The translations under genes were made by a program, and so were the position numbers. A stretch of 64,000 nt of DNA, taken from assembly GCA_019637395.1 (NCBI GenBank), contig JAHBVR010000003.1, forward strand, positions 310,001 to 374,000, read 5' to 3'. The notes under the pieces are model-generated. The model searched no databases, was not told where the DNA came from, and worked only from the letters and a program-made list of their open reading frames with translations. Below, piece by piece: positions 1,067 to 44,045 of the stretch. Every line of letters begins with the position of its first letter. Position 1 is the stretch's first letter. Origin of the DNA: Vulcanimicrobiota bacterium. Lineage in GTDB: Bacteria; Vulcanimicrobiota; Xenobia; Xenobiales; JADMJV01.

Positions 1067-3220
1067 GTGTTCCGCCGGCTTGGCCGACGCTTCCGCAACC
1101 TGCTGACCCGGGATTTTAACCTGGAAGAGCAGATGGCTCTGGCTCAGGAGCAGGAGACGACCTTCGGGCTGGAGCCCGAGCATTTTTATGACCAGTTGGA
1201 GCCGGCCACGGCCGCTCTGGAGGAAGCCAAAGCGGCCGCTCTGGGGCAGAACTGGAAGGAGGCCGCGCAGGCGCTGCTGGATCATTTCCACGACCGCCTG
1301 CGCCCTCAAGTCTTCTTGCATCCCAGCGATTTAGACCCGCTGGTGCAGTTGTTCAAAAGCCACCCGCAAGATTGCCGGCGCTGGGTCAAATCCGCCGAAC
1401 TCTCTCTGCAGCACCGCTTCGCCCCGCTCCAGGGAGAGGAGCAGCAGTTCCCCAACAGCATCGATTGGTATAGCGACTTCGCCGGCGGCTCCTGGATGAT
1501 GGCCTCGCAGCCCATGTTGCGCAATCACTTTCAGACCCAGCCTCTGCTGCCCGAGCAACAAGAGGGCCTGCTGCGTAGTTGGAGCTTCAATCAACTCGGG
1601 CATCTGATCGATCTGGTCCGCAGTCACTGGCTGACCGGCAACGAGGCCTATGCCAGCGAATGCATCGTCCAGGCGGTGGACTGGTCGGAACGCAACCCGG
1701 TCTTCATGGGAATGAGCTGGTACCATCCCAAAGTGGTGGCGGTGCGCAGCCTGCACTGGTATCTCCTGGTACAACACCTGCTCGTCTCCAATTTGATGCA
1801 AGGTGAATTGCTGGCTCGTTTTCTGAAGTGTCTGCTGCTGCACGCCGGCTACCTGGCTTTGCACCTGCGCAAGTCCTCCGAGCACCGGCTGGCGGCCGCC
1901 GCCAGTCTCTACTTGATCAGCGGCCATCTGCCCGAAATCATTCCCAGTAAAAAATGGCACGCGCTGGCTCGCCAGCATCTCCACATCGCCCTGCAGGAAG
2001 ACTTTTCCAGCGATGGTATGCACCGTTCCGGCAATGCCTCGCTGCATCGCGAGGCGCTGGATTGGATGTTGCTCTGCTATCTCTTTGACGTCATCAATTC
2101 ACGCCACCCGGACAACCTGCACCCGGCCTGCGAATCGGCCCTGGAAGCGCTCTGCTACATGAAGCCGGCGGCCGGCCAACAGGGCGAGTCCGGCCCCACT
2201 CTGAGCGAAGGCCTACTCGGTCGAGGAATTGGCCCCATCGAACATTCCAACCGTTTGCTGGCCCTGGGCGCCCTGCTCTTGCAGCGCGGCGACTGGATGC
2301 CGGCCGGCGAAGTTCCGGCCGAACTGCTCTGGTGGTTGGGTCTGCAGGCCCCATCACGAGCTCAACAGCTCGAGCGCGGGGAACCGCGCGGCATTCGACG
2401 TCTCTTCACCAATTCCCAGACCGCGGTGGTGCGCGACCATTGGGCGCCGCGCTCGAACTGGTGTCACTTCACTGGTTTTCGCCCGCGCTGGACACGCGAC
2501 CATGAGGGGCGCTATTGCGATCCCGATCCCATCGCCCTGCCCAGCCACGATGACGCCCTGAGCCTGGCCCTCAACGTGGAAGGCGAGCCCATTTTTCTGG
2601 AAGCCGGCGGCCCCATCGTGGGCGGCGAGCTGGGGCGCCTTTTCGGACGTCTGGGAGCGCATACCAGCGTGCGCATCGGACGCGAGCTGGAGCCGCTGGG
2701 AGTCGCTCCCGATCTGGAGGAAGCGCCCCTCAAGCTCAAGCTGGAGTCGTGTAAAGACGGTCATTACCTGTGCGCTCAACGGCCGGTCTGGTTCGATCTG
2801 GATCAGCCTTTCTGGTTGACCCGCGAAATTCTGTTCCTGCCCAAAAAGCAGCGGGTCGTCCTGCGCGATCATCTGGACGGCGAGGGCGAGGTGCACCTCG
2901 AGAGCAACCTGCTGCTTTCCCCCCATCTGGATGTGCTCATGCGCGGCGACATGGGCAGCCTGCTGCGCGGCCGCAAGGTGCAGGCAAGAATCTTACCCTT
3001 GTTTCCGGCCCGCTTCCGTTACGAAATGCTCAAAGGCCGCAGTCAAGGACTGCAGGGCTTCTTCTATTCCGAGACCGGTAAAGCCGTACCCACCAACTTG
3101 TTGCGTTACTACTCGCGAGTCCAGGCGCCTTGCACGGTCACCCTGTGGATCGCCTGGAACCCCGAAGACACCCTCACTCCCCGCGTCCAGGACGTCGAAC
3201 GGCTTTTCAAGTCGCGCTAA
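1067..3220 (+). CDS. Heparinase II/III family protein
   Basis: A 717-residue protein resembling the heparinase II/III (alginate lyase-like) family: an alpha-helical N-terminal half followed by a beta-rich C-terminal half. Supporting signs are SIDWYSDFAGGSW near residue 135, the helical-toroid segment with SSEHRLAAAASLYL near 270, and beta-strand repeats after residue 450. Relatives encoded in sugar-nucleotide and exopolysaccharide clusters cleave or modify acidic polysaccharides; the substrate is unknown here. It starts with GTG 3 bp after the aminotransferase stop and its end overlaps the convergent dacB end by 4 bp. No clear signal peptide is visible, which is unusual for a secreted lyase and suggests either a cytoplasmic or membrane-face role or an unrecognised export route. 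Confidence 0.75.
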   Translation: MFRRLGRRFRNLLTRDFNLEEQMALAQEQETTFGLEPEHFYDQLEPATAALEEAKAAALGQNWKEAAQALLDHFHDRLRPQVFLHPSDLDPLVQLFKSHPQDCRRWVKSAELSLQHRFAPLQGEEQQFPNSIDWYSDFAGGSWMMASQPMLRNHFQTQPLLPEQQEGLLRSWSFNQLGHLIDLVRSHWLTGNEAYASECIVQAVDWSERNPVFMGMSWYHPKVVAVRSLHWYLLVQHLLVSNLMQGELLARFLKCLLLHAGYLALHLRKSSEHRLAAAASLYLISGHLPEIIPSKKWHALARQHLHIALQEDFSSDGMHRSGNASLHREALDWMLLCYLFDVINSRHPDNLHPACESALEALCYMKPAAGQQGESGPTLSEGLLGRGIGPIEHSNRLLALGALLLQRGDWMPAGEVPAELLWWLGLQAPSRAQQLERGEPRGIRRLFTNSQTAVVRDHWAPRSNWCHFTGFRPRWTRDHEGRYCDPDPIALPSHDDALSLALNVEGEPIFLEAGGPIVGGELGRLFGRLGAHTSVRIGRELEPLGVAPDLEEAPLKLKLESCKDGHYLCAQRPVWFDLDQPFWLTREILFLPKKQRVVLRDHLDGEGEVHLESNLLLSPHLDVLMRGDMGSLLRGRKVQARILPLFPARFRYEMLKGRSQGLQGFFYSETGKAVPTNLLRYYSRVQAPCTVTLWIAWNPEDTLTPRVQDVERLFKSR

Positions 3221-4647
3221 AAAGGCTGGTCCCAGGCGGCCAGCGTGTGCAGGATCTTGTCTTCCAATTCGACGCCGGACCAGGTCTGGGGCACGTTGTT
3301 GACCAGGATGGAGAAGCCCAGGGTCTGGCCGTAAGCGCTGACCAGATAGCCGGTCAGGGCCGAGTGTTCGTCGAGGGTGCCGGTTTTAGCTCTCAAGGTC
3401 AACCCGCCCAGGCGCGAGGTGAGGGTGCCCTCGCCTCCGGTGGGCAGGCTGTCCACGTAGACCTGCCCGTGCCGGTGGCGCCACATAATTTCGACCACAC
3501 CCACCAGTTGGCGCGGAGTGATGCGATCGCTGGTGGAGAGTCCGCTGCCGTCCACCATGACCAGACCCTCGTCGCTGACATTGTGTTTGCGCAGGAAATC
3601 GCGCACGGCCGCCTCGCCGTTGGCGGCCGTTCCCTGGCCCCGGCTCTTGTAGCCCAGCGTTTTGAAAACGTGCTGAGCGAAGACATTGTCGCTCTCTTTG
3701 TTGACCTGGGCGATGATGTCTTTCAGGCGGGGCGACTGGTAGCGCGCGATCACAGGCGTGGAACCGGAGCGGGCCACCTCGCTCCCCAGGCTGATCAGCC
3801 GGGTCTTGCCGTTGATATTGATGTTGCTTGCCTTGAGGATGTGCATAAAGGAACCCAGGGTGAAGGTGCCGGGATTGCCGACCGTCACCGTCCGCTTGAT
3901 GACGCTGCCGGGTGAGACGGTGCCGCGCACCACCGTGACGTCGGAATTGCGGTCGCGAGTGATCCAGCATTCATCGTAACCGCCCGTCTTATACAGGCGC
4001 TGATACTGGAAGCCCGGACTGTTCGGCTCAGTCTTGACCGAATCGCTGGTAATGGTCAATTCGACCACGTTGCAGTTGAGCGACAGAGCCCCCACGGGAG
4101 CTGCGTAGGAATCGAGCAAATAGCGATCAAACCAGCCCTGGCCGATATACTCCCGGTCGAAGGCGCTGTCGTCGCCCACCAGATCCCCATCGACGGTGGT
4201 AATGCCCTTATCTTTGAGGTTCTTGGCGAAGAATCTCCAGGGCGAGGTCGGGTTGACGTAGGGCAAACACAGGGTCGGATCTCCGTGGCCTTTTAGATAC
4301 AGATTGCCACGCAGTACCCCGTGACCATCCGGAGGCCCGCCGCGCAGCTCGGTGAGGTAGCGATAATCTGGACCCAGCAAGTCGATGGCCGCGGCCGTGG
4401 TCACCACCTTGAGGTTGGAAGCGGGGATCATGGGCTTGAGGGCGTTCTCGCTGTAAACCACGCGGCCGGTCTTGAGCACCTGCACATAAACCCCCACCTG
4501 CCCGCTCTGGAAAGCCGAGGAGTTGCGGATCTGCTGATAGATTCTCATCTTCAATTCGTTGGCATTAGCCGGCTTAGGTGGGGGCGTGGCTGCGCCGGCT
4601 TGGTAAAGCGAGAGGCTCAGCAGACAGGCTTTAACGAGGGAACGCAT
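3217..4647 (-). CDS. dacB: D-alanyl-D-alanine carboxypeptidase/endopeptidase, PBP4 (DacB) family
   Basis: Penicillin-binding protein of the S13 family, which trims or cleaves peptidoglycan cross-links in the periplasm. All three active-site motifs are present: SxxK as PASNLK (Ser77, Lys80), SxN as SDN near 319, and KTG near 421-423. Residues 1-20 form a signal peptide. The length of 476 residues matches the family, and the long insert between SxxK and SxN (about 240 residues) is the domain II/III insertion typical of PBP4. The gene stands alone, convergent with the heparinase-like gene and divergent from the yihY-like gene 77 bp away. Confidence 0.95.
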   Translation of the reverse strand: MRSLVKACLLSLSLYQAGAATPPPKPANANELKMRIYQQIRNSSAFQSGQVGVYVQVLKTGRVVYSENALKPMIPASNLKVVTTAAAIDLLGPDYRYLTELRGGPPDGHGVLRGNLYLKGHGDPTLCLPYVNPTSPWRFFAKNLKDKGITTVDGDLVGDDSAFDREYIGQGWFDRYLLDSYAAPVGALSLNCNVVELTITSDSVKTEPNSPGFQYQRLYKTGGYDECWITRDRNSDVTVVRGTVSPGSVIKRTVTVGNPGTFTLGSFMHILKASNININGKTRLISLGSEVARSGSTPVIARYQSPRLKDIIAQVNKESDNVFAQHVFKTLGYKSRGQGTAANGEAAVRDFLRKHNVSDEGLVMVDGSGLSTSDRITPRQLVGVVEIMWRHRHGQVYVDSLPTGGEGTLTSRLGGLTLRAKTGTLDEHSALTGYLVSAYGQTLGFSILVNNVPQTWSGVELEDKILHTLAAWDQPF

Positions 4648-9597: not shown

Positions 9598-10802
9598 TCT
9601 ACCTGTGCACTGGCCTGAAATTGGCGGAGCACGGTCACGCGCACCGGCCCGGGTCGGGTGACGGCGGCTCCGATGTCATCGGCCAACCGGCTGGCAAGTT
9701 TCATACATTCTTCATCATCGGCCGATTCGGGGCGAACAAAAACGCGAATCTCGCGCCCGGCCTGAATAACCTGGCAGTCGACCACCTGCGGAAGCTTGCG
9801 GGCCAGGCTTTCTAGTGTCTCCATGCGTTGCAGATAATCCTGGGTGTTTTCTCTTCTGGCACCGGGCCGGGCCGCGCTGATAGCGTCGGCCACCTGCACC
9901 AGAGTGGCCTCCAAGGTCGTCTGGGGGACGTCCTCGTGGTGGGCTTCGACGGCGTGGCAGACCTGGGAGGATTCGCCGAAGCGGCGGCAGAGGGCGGCGC
10001 CGGTGACGGCGTGAGGGCCGGGATCGGTGAGTCCTTTGCCAATGTCATGCAGCAGTCCGGCCCGTTTGGCGGTTTCGACGTCGCCACCCAGCTCGGCCGC
10101 CAGCTGCCCACACAGATGGGCCACTTCTTGGGAGTGCTCGAGCACGTTTTGCCGGTAGGAGGTGCGGAAGGCCAGGCGTCCGAGAGCTTCCGCGAGTTGA
10201 GGGTGCAGCTTTGTGAGTTTCAGGTTGCTGACCGCCTGGCGGCCCTTTTCCTGCAGCTGGCCAGTCATCTCGGATTTGGCCCGCTGCACGGCTTCTTCGA
10301 TGCGCTGGGGTTGAAAGCGGCCGTCCTGAATCAGGCGCTGCATGGCGATTTTGGCGATCTCGCGGCGAAAGGGGTCGAAACACGAGAGCGTCACCGAATT
10401 GGGCACGTCGTCGATGACGATGTCCACGCCGGTGAGCGACTCGAAGAGCCTGAGGTTGCGGCCTTCCTTGCCGATGATACGGCCCTTGTAGTCTTCACTG
10501 GGGAGGCTCAGGTTGCTGAGGGAGTGGTGGTTTACTTCGTGGACCACCACTCTTTGCATGGCCTGGGCGATCTGGCGGGCGGCCAGTTCTTCCCAGTCTT
10601 TGCGGGCCACTTGCTCGAGTGCCTCACGATTTTTGATCTTGATTTCCTGGATGAGTTCTTCCAGAATCTCGGGGGTGCGCGGATCTGGTGCTGGTTTTTG
10701 CGGGGGTTCTTCGGGGGGTTTCTGTCCCTTGGGACGTCCCAAGATCGCACCGGCGATGCCGCCGGCCAGTAACCATACCCAGGAATTTGACATCAACGGC
10801 AC
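9594..10802 (-). CDS. rny: Ribonuclease Y (short form)
   Basis: Membrane-anchored endoribonuclease that starts bulk mRNA decay. The 402 residues contain an N-terminal membrane segment (about 8-22), a short charged helix, a KH domain with YKGRIIGKEGRN near 105-115, and an HD domain with the metal-binding LLHDIGKG near 250-257 and AHHEDVPQ further on. Typical RNase Y is about 510-520 residues; the shortfall is mostly in the coiled coil between the anchor and the KH domain, which is reduced to about 70 residues. Start codons GTG 10802 and ATG 10793 are both possible. It heads the operon running down to the mazG-like gene and is divergent from the glutaminyl cyclase gene, with 48 bp between them. 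Confidence 0.93.
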   Translation of the reverse strand: MPLMSNSWVWLLAGGIAGAILGRPKGQKPPEEPPQKPAPDPRTPEILEELIQEIKIKNREALEQVARKDWEELAARQIAQAMQRVVVHEVNHHSLSNLSLPSEDYKGRIIGKEGRNLRLFESLTGVDIVIDDVPNSVTLSCFDPFRREIAKIAMQRLIQDGRFQPQRIEEAVQRAKSEMTGQLQEKGRQAVSNLKLTKLHPQLAEALGRLAFRTSYRQNVLEHSQEVAHLCGQLAAELGGDVETAKRAGLLHDIGKGLTDPGPHAVTGAALCRRFGESSQVCHAVEAHHEDVPQTTLEATLVQVADAISAARPGARRENTQDYLQRMETLESLARKLPQVVDCQVIQAGREIRVFVRPESADDEECMKLASRLADDIGAAVTRPGPVRVTVLRQFQASAQVE

Positions 10803-10850
10803 TTCCCGGCCGCCACAGGGGGCCCTGCCTCAGGGAGCGAACGGGCCCCG

Positions 10851-11672
10851 GTGTTGATGCGCTGGTTTTTCGCCCTGTGGTTGGCGGGTTGCGCCGCTCC
10901 CGCGACTCCGCCTGCCGCCGCTCCCCCTACGCTGCCGCCGGCTTCTCCGGTGGCGGTGGAAACGCCGGTGGCCGCGGCCCTTTGGAACTACGAGGTGGTC
11001 GAGCGCTATCCCCACGATCCTAAGGCCTATACGCAGGGGCTATGGATGGACCCGAAGGGCCAGATGTGGGAAACGACCGGTCTGCGCAAGGAGTCCACTC
11101 TTCGCCAGGTGGATTTGACGACGGGCAAGTTCAAGGTGGTAGCTCGTTTGTCCGACAAGGAGTTCGGGGAGGGACTGGCTTTTGCCGCCGGTCGATTCTT
11201 CTGGATTACCTGGGACACCCAGGTTTGCCATACTTTTGATGCCCATTTAAAACCGGCCGGGGATTTCAAGTATGAGGGCGAGGGCTGGGGCCTGACCACC
11301 GATCCTGCCGGTGATTTGTGGATGAGCAACGGCAGCGATAAACTGGTGCTGCGCGATCCCAAGACCTTTGCGGTGAAGCGGGAGATTTCCGTGAGCCGGG
11401 ACGGGCAGCCGCTGGGCTACTTGAACGAACTCGAATGGGTGGAAGGCCGCATCTACGCCAATGTCTACCGGGCTCCGTTCGTGGCCGTGATTCGGCCGGA
11501 GAATGGCCAGGTGGAGGCGGTCATCGACTTCACCGGGCTGCTGTCGGAGTCCGACGCCCAGGGAGCGGACGTGCTCAACGGCATCGCCTACGAGGCTGCC
11601 AGCAAGAAGCTGTGGGTCACCGGCAAACTCTGGCCCAAACTGTTCCAGGTGCGCGTGCGCCAGGGCCCCTGA
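10851..11672 (+). CDS. Glutaminyl-peptide cyclotransferase (glutamine cyclase) lipoprotein
   Basis: Beta-propeller glutaminyl cyclase of the plant/bacterial type, which converts N-terminal Gln of exported peptides to pyroglutamate. Family signs are HDPKAYTQGLWMD near residues 58-70, GEGWGLTTD near 145 and LGYLNELEWVEGRIYANVY near 190. The N-terminus is a lipoprotein signal (WLAGC lipobox followed by an Ala/Pro-rich linker), so the enzyme is anchored in the envelope. In-frame GTG, TTG and ATG occur within the first three codons; ATG at 10857 is likely. It is a single gene whose stop lies directly before the tandem hairpin array. Confidence 0.9.
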   Translation: MLMRWFFALWLAGCAAPATPPAAAPPTLPPASPVAVETPVAAALWNYEVVERYPHDPKAYTQGLWMDPKGQMWETTGLRKESTLRQVDLTTGKFKVVARLSDKEFGEGLAFAAGRFFWITWDTQVCHTFDAHLKPAGDFKYEGEGWGLTTDPAGDLWMSNGSDKLVLRDPKTFAVKREISVSRDGQPLGYLNELEWVEGRIYANVYRAPFVAVIRPENGQVEAVIDFTGLLSESDAQGADVLNGIAYEAASKKLWVTGKLWPKLFQVRVRQGP

Positions 11673-11674
11673 CG

Positions 11675-12330
11675 GGTTTTCCGGCAACTCTTGCCGGGGG
11701 GCGGGGCTTGCCGCTTTTTTGGCAACTTCCCCCGGGGGCGGCCGGGGCTTGCCGTTTTTTTAGCAACTCTTGCCAAATTTCCGGCAACTCCCCGGTGGCG
11801 GGCCAGGTTTGCCAGCTTTTTGGCAACTCGTGCCAAGTTTCCGGCAACTCCCGCCGGGCGGGGCTTGCCGTTTTTTGGCAACTCTTGCCAAATTTCCGGC
11901 AACTTTCGCCGGGGCGGGCCGGGCTTGCCGGTTTTTTGGGCAACTCTTGCCAAATTCCGGCAACTTTCGCCGGGGCGGGGCTTGCCGCTTTTTTGGCAAC
12001 TCTTGCCAAGTTTCCGGCAACTTTCGCCGGGGCGGGCCGGGCTTGCCGGTTTTTAGCAACTCTTGCCACATTTCCGGCAACTCCCGCCGGGGGCGGCCGG
12101 GGCTTGCCGGTTTTTGGCAACTCTTGCCACATTTCCGGCAACTCCCGCCGGGGGCGACCGGGGCTTGCCGCTTTTCTGGCAACTCTTGCCAAGTTTCCGG
12201 CAACCTTCGCCGGGGGGCGGGCCGGGCTTGCCGCTTTTTTGGCAACTCTTGCCAAATTTCCGGCATCTCCCGCCGGGGCGGGCCGGGCTTGCCGCCTTTT
12301 TGGCAACTCTTGCCAAAAACCGGCCACCCG
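11675..12330. repeat. Tandem array of about 12 hairpin units, terminator-like on the + strand
   Basis: About twelve degenerate direct repeats of 40-64 bp fill the gap between two convergent genes. A full unit has three parts in order: TTGGCAA-CTC-TTGCCAA (a 7-bp stem with a 3-nt loop), a G+C-rich stem that opens with CCGGCAA and closes with TTGCCGG, and a run of 4-7 T. The second part therefore looks like an intrinsic terminator read on the + strand, repeated many times. Within it, CCGGC...GCCGG offers an alternative short hairpin. The first two units are shortened and the last loses its second stem. All six frames are open because the unit contains no stop triplets, but unit lengths vary by non-multiples of three, so it is unlikely to be coding. 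Confidence 0.9.
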
Positions 12331-12341
12331 CCCGTCGCCGG

Positions 12342-13109
12342 TTAGCTAGCCACCGATGCCTGCGCGGGTTTTAGTCTTTGGCGCAGTAGTTCCGGGAAGT
12401 CTTGTTGCAGGATCTCGTGGTCGGTGAAGCGGATGGTCTCGGGAATGAGCCAGGAATCCCGAGTTTGGTCCCACGTTCTATCCTTGTGCGCGCCTCCATC
12501 GAACTCGAGCACCTTCCAATAGAGTCCGTTAAATGCCAGCGCGTCAACTCGGATGATCTGCCCGTTGACCAGCATATGCACCTGGGGGAAGATGAGCCAG
12601 CCTTCGAAGAAGAAGGCGGCGCGCCGGGCCATTGACATCGGCTTGCCCTGAGCGTCGACCAGCGGGTGATGGGGAAATCCCAGAGCGGCCAGGCTGACCA
12701 GAACAAACTCGGCGCCGCTTTCGGAAAGCCAGCAGTAGACACAACCCTCGAGCCTGGAGTCCATTCGCACCAGGCGCTTGAAGTCCAAGGGGATCGGGCG
12801 TTTCGGTTTTAAGCGGCGGTAAAACTGGTAGTAGCCGGGCGAATATTTGTCCCAGGTCGGTCCCGCCTCTACCTCCACAGCCCACTGATCCATCCGCGCA
12901 AACTGGCGGTGCCGGGCCCAGGTCCAGGCGCCCGCCCTCGAAACTTCGGGGGCCATCTTCAAACGTTCCAACACTTTGGGCAACAATGCGACAGGCCATT
13001 TTCGGCTGCCATTCTCGTAACGAGACCAGGCGGTCGGACAGACCTGGAATTCCTCGGCCAACTGTTTCTGAGTGAGGCCCATGGCCTGGCGTTTTTCCGG
13101 GATTGTCAT
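12342..13109 (-). CDS. XRE-type HTH protein fused to a DUF559/Vsr-like nuclease domain
   Basis: A 255-residue protein with an N-terminal XRE helix-turn-helix (MGLTQKQLAEEFQVCPTAWSRYENG, residues 10-34) and a C-terminal region resembling the PD-(D/E)XK nucleases of the DUF559/Vsr group: IRVDAL with Asp189, LEFDGGAH with Glu202, Asp204 and His208, then DQTRDSWL and IRFTDHEIL. The middle (60-180) is not recognised. DUF559 domains are often encoded near mobile elements and restriction systems. The gene converges with the glutaminyl cyclase gene across the hairpin array and ends 12 bp from it. Autorepression through its own HTH is plausible; whether the nuclease motif is active or acts on DNA is unknown. 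Confidence 0.78.
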   Translation of the reverse strand: MTIPEKRQAMGLTQKQLAEEFQVCPTAWSRYENGSRKWPVALLPKVLERLKMAPEVSRAGAWTWARHRQFARMDQWAVEVEAGPTWDKYSPGYYQFYRRLKPKRPIPLDFKRLVRMDSRLEGCVYCWLSESGAEFVLVSLAALGFPHHPLVDAQGKPMSMARRAAFFFEGWLIFPQVHMLVNGQIIRVDALAFNGLYWKVLEFDGGAHKDRTWDQTRDSWLIPETIRFTDHEILQQDFPELLRQRLKPAQASVAS

Positions 13110-13162
13110 AGGCCAACCCTATACGACCTTGGGGCCGGGGTGTTTAACTGGCCATGTCCAAT

Positions 13163-13839
13163 CTATGACATTTTAAATTGGTCCTGGACCAGTTTAATCA
13201 CCTGGTTGAGGCCGGGTCTTTTCTGGAAGTCGGCCACGGTGCGCTGTTCGCCGGTGGGGCGGCGCAGGTCCAGGAACCAGCGCGGAGGCCTGGCAGTGTC
13301 ATCGTACATGAGACTGAAGACCCCTTCGGTGTCGTTGCTATTGGGCCGGCTAAATTCGATGTCCCAGTAATGGTCCCGGTTTTGGGGGTCGAACTGGAAG
13401 CGTTCGAAGACCATGAAGTGGCGCAAACGGTGGTCGAACTGGCAGCGCACAAAGAACTTTTCGAGGCTAAGTTTGGCGTCTTTACCGCTCTTCCAGAGTC
13501 CCGCAATTCGGCGATCAACTGGTCCACCGCCGCCGTATTGTCGATGGCTTCCTGGGCCTGAATCAACTTGGCAAGGTCCTGATAGTCGTCCGGTTGCACC
13601 TCGCGATAACGGGTCCAGAACTGAATGGCCAGGCGCGGCTCGTTGTGGAAGAAAGCGGCCAGCCCGGCGTTGTAGAGCAGCAACGGATGCTTGGGCTCCA
13701 GGCCCAGGCCGGCTCGGTGTTCGTTGAGAGCGGCCGGGTAGTCGTGCTCCCGCAACCGGGCGTTGCCCCGCTCCCAGGTGGGATCGGCCTGAGGCCAGGA
13801 GAGGGTGTTCAGGAGCAGGACAACGAGGAAGGCTTTCAT
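13163..13839 (-). pseudogene. Exported TPR-like protein gene interrupted by a frameshift
   Basis: Two overlapping reading frames together form one sensible protein. The first part (from ATG 13839) has a signal peptide (MKAFLVVLLLNTLSWPQA) and TPR-like helices through LIAELRDSG; it then becomes low-complexity. The second frame, one base back, continues with LEKFFVRCQFDHRLRHFMVFERFQFD to a stop at 13163. The switch lies at about 13475-13500 and corresponds to one missing base. No slippery heptamer with a downstream pseudoknot is apparent, so either a real loss-of-function mutation or a sequencing error is more likely than programmed frameshifting. The second part holds a WDIEFSRPN...WFLDLRRP motif that I cannot assign. 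Confidence 0.7.
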
Positions 13840-43700: not shown

Positions 43701-43866
43701 CAATCAGCCGCTGGCCCGGGCCGTCATCGGCGGACTGACCGTGTCCACGGTGTTGACACTTCTCGTGATTCCGCTGTTTTATCTATGGATCGGGCGGCTG
43801 GTTGCGCGGAAGGAACGCGTTTCTGTAGCTGAGAAGGAGGCCGGCCGCACAAGTGGGGGGTCCTAG
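40726..43866 (+). CDS. RND (AcrB/HAE1-type) efflux permease
   Basis: Proton-driven inner-membrane multidrug or hydrophobic-compound exporter of 1046 residues with 12 transmembrane helices and two large periplasmic loops. It starts MWLTRLAIRNPIAVLMVSLA. Helix 4 carries the proton-relay pair in LGGLTLALGRLVDDAIVVREN, and the loop after TM9/10 has MSFMGVIMMTGIVVSNGILLVEF. ATG 40726 is 1 bp after the adaptor stop; an upstream in-frame start lies inside the adaptor gene. The last seven residues (GRTSGGS) are encoded by the palindromic repeat array that follows. Confidence 0.96.
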   Translation: MWLTRLAIRNPIAVLMVSLAVAVLAVLSVSRLPIDMFPALNIPCIQINTNYSGASPEEVERSITYPLEQAVSRVAGIVRVQSTSSVGKSQIQVWFNWGVSLDSSLVQVISNVQRSMGSLPLGIDPPAISQFDVSNFPVVQIAVDAPTLSPQETSQLAEYVISPQLERISGVSDVEVRGAIIRQINVNVDPQKLQARGISLQDVQQALRQNNQLVPSGVLRNNRLDYQLEVPTLLESVEDISQVVVTTRNGVPIKVRDVARVEDGSAPRTEIYRVNGQDTVSLWVLMQPQANLVALSDDVQRTLPRIAGLPDGVELKVIFDQSNYIRTAVRGLEHEGLTGALLVAFVVLVFLRNWTSVVIICVGIPLAVAAALVCLYFGGQTLNIFTLGGLTLALGRLVDDAIVVRENITRHLEEEDLSVSEAVLRATGEVGMPVLASTLTTVAVFFPVVFLEGVSQKLFVPLSLTIIFSMMASYVVSMTIDPVLSIAWTRRSSGPPGRISRWLESVLVWMEDTYERFLRQVLRRGWVVVLVLVLSLGSALMLSPRVKTEFFPESDEGVITVNVQAQLGTGVPTTAELCRRVDQIVTEVVRPDEILAVLTSAGNPTSNQARMFLRLRPAFERKRGVPQISAALRKALADKIPGVRLSVNPGGLARRILNFGAAAPIDVQILGYDQDIGARLASEIERKLRSVPGATDITVVPQGQVPSFHVKIDRERSALLGLNPTQVANTLNTALSGGVTGANRFVEPKSGNEFDLVTQLEENYRTHPEDLGAVPVAALFSGVVGRGSQATPLALRNVATITLGSAPLQIQRKNQVRVIDVTANNSLPLGEVSDNVTKMLKQVEMPEGFTWYLAGQTEQQAGAFASMMLTAGLALMLIYMIMASQFGTLWEPLVIMLTVPLGLVGVCWAQLLTGTAFSVMSFMGVIMMTGIVVSNGILLVEFSKTLQERGLEPLAAVVMAGRTRLRPIVMTALATIVGMIPMATGWGGGSDTNQPLARAVIGGLTVSTVLTLLVIPLFYLWIGRLVARKERVSVAEKEAGRTSGGS

Positions 43867-44045
43867 GGGGGGTGCGTTAACCCCCACTAGAACACAAGTG
43901 GGAGGCGCGTTAGCCTCCCTTAGAACACAAAGTGGGGGTCCTAGGGGGAGGCGCGTTAGCCCCCCTTAGAACACAGAGTGGGGGGTCCTAGGGGGGGTGC
44001 GTTAACCCCCACTAGAACACAAGTGGGAGGCGCGTTAGCCTCCCT
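43850..44045. repeat. Compound palindromic repeat array between the RND gene and aspS
   Basis: Five units share the frame CACA(A/G)AGTGGG ... TAGAA. Two are short, with the hairpin GGGAGGC-GCGTTA-GCCTCCC; three are long, with TCCTAGGGGG then a second stem such as GGGGGTGCGTTAACCCCC. The long-plus-short pair of 69 bp occurs twice identically (from 43852 and from 43977) around one intermediate unit, so the array grew by duplication. There are no T-runs, so it is not a terminator set. It lies 20-215 bp before the aspS start. Confidence 0.9.

Follow-up and report, generated by a model that had tools for sequence, protein, structure and literature searches.

The window, meaning the whole stretch of 64,000 nucleotides that was analysed, contains a tandem array of palindromic units at 11680-12318. 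The array fills the gap of a convergent gene pair, as had been described in the initial annotation. On the + strand, a glutamine cyclotransferase gene (10851-11672; PF05096, 7e-80) has its stop codon 8 bp before the array. On the - strand, a gene with an N-terminal HTH (XRE-domain) (12342-13109; PF13560/PF01381, both slightly under the curated cut-off) has its stop codon 24 bp beyond the array. The flanking genes were predicted with a simple codon-score script and their starts are therefore approximate.

About ten units of about 61 bp each are arranged head-to-tail, with the T-runs on the + strand. Tandem Repeats Finder (TRF) reported the array at 11721-12317 with a period of 61, 9.9 copies and 84% matches, and reading of the sequence extended the limits to 11680-12318, where the first units are degenerate. 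These occupy 11680-11759 (+ strand) and consist of CCGGCAACTCTTGCCGG and of a unit in which the central palindrome is lacking. Ten core palindromes, TTGGCAANNNTTGCCAA, follow at 11760-12316 (+ strand), starting at positions 11760, 11820, 11875, 11937, 11993, 12053, 12114, 12176, 12239 and 12300. The spacings between these recognisable TTGGCAA-NNN-TTGCCAA palindromes are 60, 55, 62, 56, 60, 61, 62, 63 and 61 bp. The initial annotation had counted about twelve units of 40-64 bp; the repeat array itself was confirmed, but with about ten units at a spacing of 55-63 bp. The unit of the window array reads TTGGCAA-CTC-TTGCCAA-ATTT-CCGGCAA-(variable, ~21 nt)-TTGCCGG-TTTTT. Derivation from a coding sequence was dismissed on reasoning: 61 is not divisible by 3, so open frames through the array rotate.

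A second and unrelated set of tandem hairpins was seen in the window at 43860-44045 (TRF period 46, 2.8 copies), where the hairpins GGGAGGCGCGTTAGCCTCCC / GGGGGTGCGTTAACCCCC are spaced by TTAGAACACAAAGT. Judged from their translations, the open reading frame directly before this set presumably encodes an RND-type transporter and the one directly after it what we take to be an aspartyl-tRNA synthetase.

Distribution and turnover of the repeat family

The host genome (G000, Eremiobacterota) comprises 7.66 Mb in 36 contigs, and its relatives named here are Candidatus Eremiobacterota MAGs, with G002 as the sister species. The initial annotation had proposed a search of the genome and its relatives, and the unit was indeed found at ten sites in G000 (48 units) and at eight sites in G002 (46 units). 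Beyond the window, G000 has arrays of 5, 8, 7, 9 and 5 units and four single copies; one additional relic lies on C24. The family unit is TTGGCAA-NNN-TTGCCAA-ATTTCyGGCAA-(~21 nt variable, G+C-rich)-TTGMCG-TTTT. Together, the two genomes hold 94 units with a spacing of 60.8 +/- 1.3 bp, and 69 of 75 unit spacings fall at 60-62 bp. The core is most strongly conserved at CTTGCC (columns 9-14), where each column reaches at least 91% and mostly 100%, and the flanks vary.

Absence from other genomes was judged by DNA and pattern searches. When 149 genomes of the phylum were surveyed with a 19-base core pattern allowing one mismatch, the family was present in two and none was found in the other 147. 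A pattern scan of viral contigs gave no match. A stricter exact pattern had no match in the genome contig collection, which is weak evidence for absence since this pattern would miss even G002.

The gene context could be assigned at 16 sites with our own gene calls. The recurrence at convergent junctions that the initial annotation had suggested looking for was seen at six of them, but six others are divergent and four lie between genes of the same direction. At three of the latter four, both neighbours are antisense to the strand with the T-runs. An association with one particular neighbour gene was rejected because no gene is shared between the array sites. One single-copy unit has, at a distance of about 600 bp, an open reading frame (L055 3657-4385) that by reading is presumably a tyrosine recombinase/integrase; such a neighbour was observed beside no other array among those examined.

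Within an array the variable segments share 80% identity; between arrays this falls to 59%, not far from the 53% obtained after shuffling, and the arrays are thus homogenised locally. Two arrays are orthologous in G000 and G002, with flanks that are 82-84% identical. Their copy numbers differ: the window array has 10 units and its G002 counterpart (L058) 14, and the array at L053 has 9 units compared to 3 at L057. The independent occurrence of an orthologous array in another MAG shows that the window array is not an assembly artefact.

Other sites were found empty in relatives. The nine-unit array C23a (L053 3030-3600, about 555 bp) splits a convergent gene pair that has no array in G001, G003 and G004; in G001 (L198) and G004 the two stop codons meet or overlap, and G003 has a 43-bp gap between the genes. 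The array C12b, about 490 bp long, lies about 80 bp upstream of the conserved start codon of an acyl-CoA oxidase gene, and the site is otherwise aligned but without an array in G001, G002 and G003. The C162 array of G002 is missing from G001, which has a gap of 30 bp, and G000 carries a different gene at this position. The C162 flanks of G002 are 85-87% identical to G000 and 80-82% to G001. As G002 is thus nearer to G000 here, the family plausibly arose in the common ancestor of these two. The initial annotation had regarded absence of the array from close relatives as speaking against a function. G001 does lack the window array, but there the neighbouring gene has gone as well.

The G000 counterpart of the C162 site (L185, about 2390-3550) is an intergenic insertion hotspot, and the inserted gene presumably encodes an AAA/DUF4143-type ATPase, as read from its sequence. 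No consistent target-site duplication was seen at the array sites. CTAG is found on both edges of C23a, but each copy is a required stop codon and the other sites show no duplication, and it is not claimed as one.

A second palindromic family in G001 and G003

At the orthologue of the window junction, G003 has a different palindromic tandem repeat, the CCCCG family, with a period of 61 and 2.5 copies (L188 3468-3617). A further array of this family was found in G003 at L192 1500-1682 (period 72), together with single units, and two arrays of period 60 in G001 at L191 1440-1698 and L193 1437-1560 (4.3 and 2.1 copies). The units of G001 and G003 are clearly related to each other, and the family is absent from G000, G002, G004, G005 and G006. 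One array in G003 (C69) comes after a tRNA gene and the terminator-like hairpin of that gene, and one in G001 (C30) precedes an ordinary terminator-like hairpin.

The two families resemble each other in that both form intergenic palindromic tandem arrays with a period of 60-61 bp (in the CCCCG family also 72), once at orthologous junctions. They differ in sequence: the similarity between them is not above that of shuffles, and homology was rejected. Either palindromic repeats have a hotspot at the window junction, or the architecture and the period are under selection; a single junction in common gives the latter little support. We regard it as quite unlikely that a class of intergenic palindromic satellites of about 60-61 bp persists in spite of a change of sequence from one species to the next, with a co-evolving protein or process that would need the architecture and not the letters. 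If true, sequence replacement under a kept architecture would extend even to one shared junction within a genus. That sister species have two families of near-equal period but without detectable similarity, in one case at a shared junction, raises the question of what fixes about 61 bp.

Terminator-like sites and rival explanations

A terminator scan of 10800-13200 found 15 sites, compared to 4.8 +/- 2.5 in shuffled sequences. Twelve of them lie in the array (11700-12301), all on the + strand and at the unit junctions, and each consists of a G+C stem ending in TTGCC and a T-run. The chain of terminator look-alikes on the + strand that had been noticed initially was therefore real. On either strand, the predicted fold of the whole array was more stable than that of shuffles (z -7.3 and -7.6), so its directionality, which had been claimed in general, holds for the T-runs but not for the hairpins. 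The G+C-rich stem would be accounted for by the arrangement, since the junction of tandem palindromes is an extra dyad centre. From the sequence, the resemblance to terminators appears to be mostly a by-product of the head-to-tail repetition of a palindrome, and some units of the window array might still stop + strand transcripts.

The array could have evolved as a directional chain of terminators that halts + strand transcription ahead of the convergent gene. It begins 8 bp past the stop of the + gene, and the excess of sites on one strand fits this explanation. However, at the same junction in G002, none of the 14 units has 5 or more T and a single terminator-like site was found where shuffles gave 2.7. 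A G+C-rich hairpin with a T-run is present in the window array and lacking in most sister arrays: C12a, C12b and C6 have no such site and C23a has 2, with 1.9, 1.6, 0.9 and 2.9 in the respective shuffles. Arrays also occur in divergent and antisense positions. After each of the G002 arrays C53 and C162 comes a separate ordinary hairpin with a T-run, which would itself suffice as a terminator. In addition, the convergent pair at C23a does without an array in the relatives, even where the stop codons overlap. The extreme transcription blocking that had been offered in the initial annotation was not upheld as the function of the repeat, and evolution for termination is quite unlikely. A transcribed RNA element, acting as a sponge, as processed small RNAs or as a stabiliser of mRNA 3' ends, would agree with the strong predicted folding, but both strands fold equally. 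Over 26 units, the central arms are 93% paired and the two-arm stem shows no covariation (0.082, shuffled 0.083), which also speaks against selected terminators; the hairpin is conserved as sequence and not visibly as compensating structure. At the tested pairs, an ungapped count gave 174 G-U and 177 A-C deviations, which are balanced, and no Rfam covariance model scored above its gathering score in the array, with only tRNAs detected in the flanks. An RNA function, including the sponge suggested initially, is very improbable.

Protein binding would explain other features. Every unit offers a 17-bp dyad flanked by GGCAA/TTGMC half-sites. With such sites clustered at regular spacing, a DNA-binding protein might insulate parts of the chromosome or organise them. 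The TTGCC of the core carries nearly 2 bits per column, the ~21-nt spacer diverges at constant length, the sites are independent of gene direction and the large clusters are few per genome. On the other hand, no candidate protein was found and most orthologous sites examined do not keep the array. With 10.5 bp per helical turn, 61 bp make 5.8 turns, so that the cores would face different sides of the helix. Units that are degenerate or occur singly are common. We consider a binding array, which had also been offered initially, rather unlikely.

Probable amplification of a dispersed palindrome and known repeats

The window array is probably one of several places occupied by a REP/SMAG/BOX-like extragenic palindrome that is dispersed and lineage-specific and that has been amplified and homogenised in place. 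The palindromic unit is dispersed, it forms tandem arrays with a fixed period of about 61 bp that are self-similar and vary in copy number, and gains were observed against empty orthologous sites. Among the options listed initially, a repeat that merely expanded was therefore the best supported. The units would arrive at intergenic sites through some copying step, slippage or unequal recombination would then expand and homogenise them, and the arrays would be tolerated wherever no gene is broken. The second G+C-rich stem, composed of the variable segment and the CCGGCAA/TTGCCGG arms, would arise automatically, since in a row of palindromes every junction is a centre of dyad symmetry. The T-run belongs to the unit; in the window array the T-runs are by chance of sufficient length, and any termination that some units may cause on the + strand would be a side effect. 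Against mere expansion stands the period, which is constant over 14 multi-unit arrays and more regular than passive expansion needs. The asymmetric conservation of the CTTGCC columns hints at sequence recognition, and one array (L063) exceeds its shuffles in terminator-like sites (5 compared to 1.4).

No mobilising enzyme was identified for the repeat. An association with RAYT was rejected, as Y1_Tnp/RAYT (PF01797) was found as a single frame-broken copy in G000 and not in the fragmented, 82% complete assembly of G002. The arrays constitute a previously undescribed family of interspersed palindromic repeats, from a phylum with hardly any cultured members, and the family stands out by its unusually fixed period and the missing REP tag and RAYT. 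A chain of terminator look-alikes that arises as a geometric by-product of tandem palindromes is also a trap for terminator prediction.

Several known kinds of repeats were compared. A CRISPR array was rejected because there are no unique spacers and the segment between the cores is homogenised, and an integron attC reading was dropped on general knowledge. With the REP, BIME and REPIN elements of the RAYT type, the family shares that it consists of dispersed, orientation-independent and lineage-specific extragenic palindromes (PMC3733652, PMC3116915). In contrast to these, the window array has neither a GTAG nor a CGTC tag on either strand, an intact RAYT was not found, and the arrays are head-to-tail where REPs are mainly inverted dimers (PMC3733652, PMC3116915). 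Among the 94 units, GTAG occurs in 3 and 1 on the two strands; 37 units have CGTC on the minus strand, as part of the paired TTGACG arm. With both the tag and RAYT failing, the family was not classed as REP. In the pneumococcal BOX element the number of tandem boxB modules varies, and the interspersed SPRITE repeat resembles a Rho-independent terminator (PMC3049150); the arrays share the tandem modules with the former and the terminator-like look with the latter (PMC3049150). They differ from both in phylum and sequence, and from BOX in having no recognised boxA/boxC-like ends; by reading, no end module common to the arrays was seen in the flanks.

The SMAG elements of Stenotrophomonas maltophilia are GTAG-type REPs in tandem loci (PMC2613905). 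They have a GTAG end tag and a unit size that depends on the locus, whereas the present units have no tag and measure about 61 bp everywhere; their number in G000 is only in the tens, and RAYT was not found in intact form. Like the present family, SMAG elements are short G+C-rich palindromes that occur singly or head-to-tail at several loci, and their copy number varies between strains (PMC2613905). At one SMAG locus, one palindrome family is swapped for another (PMC2613905), as between G003 and G000.
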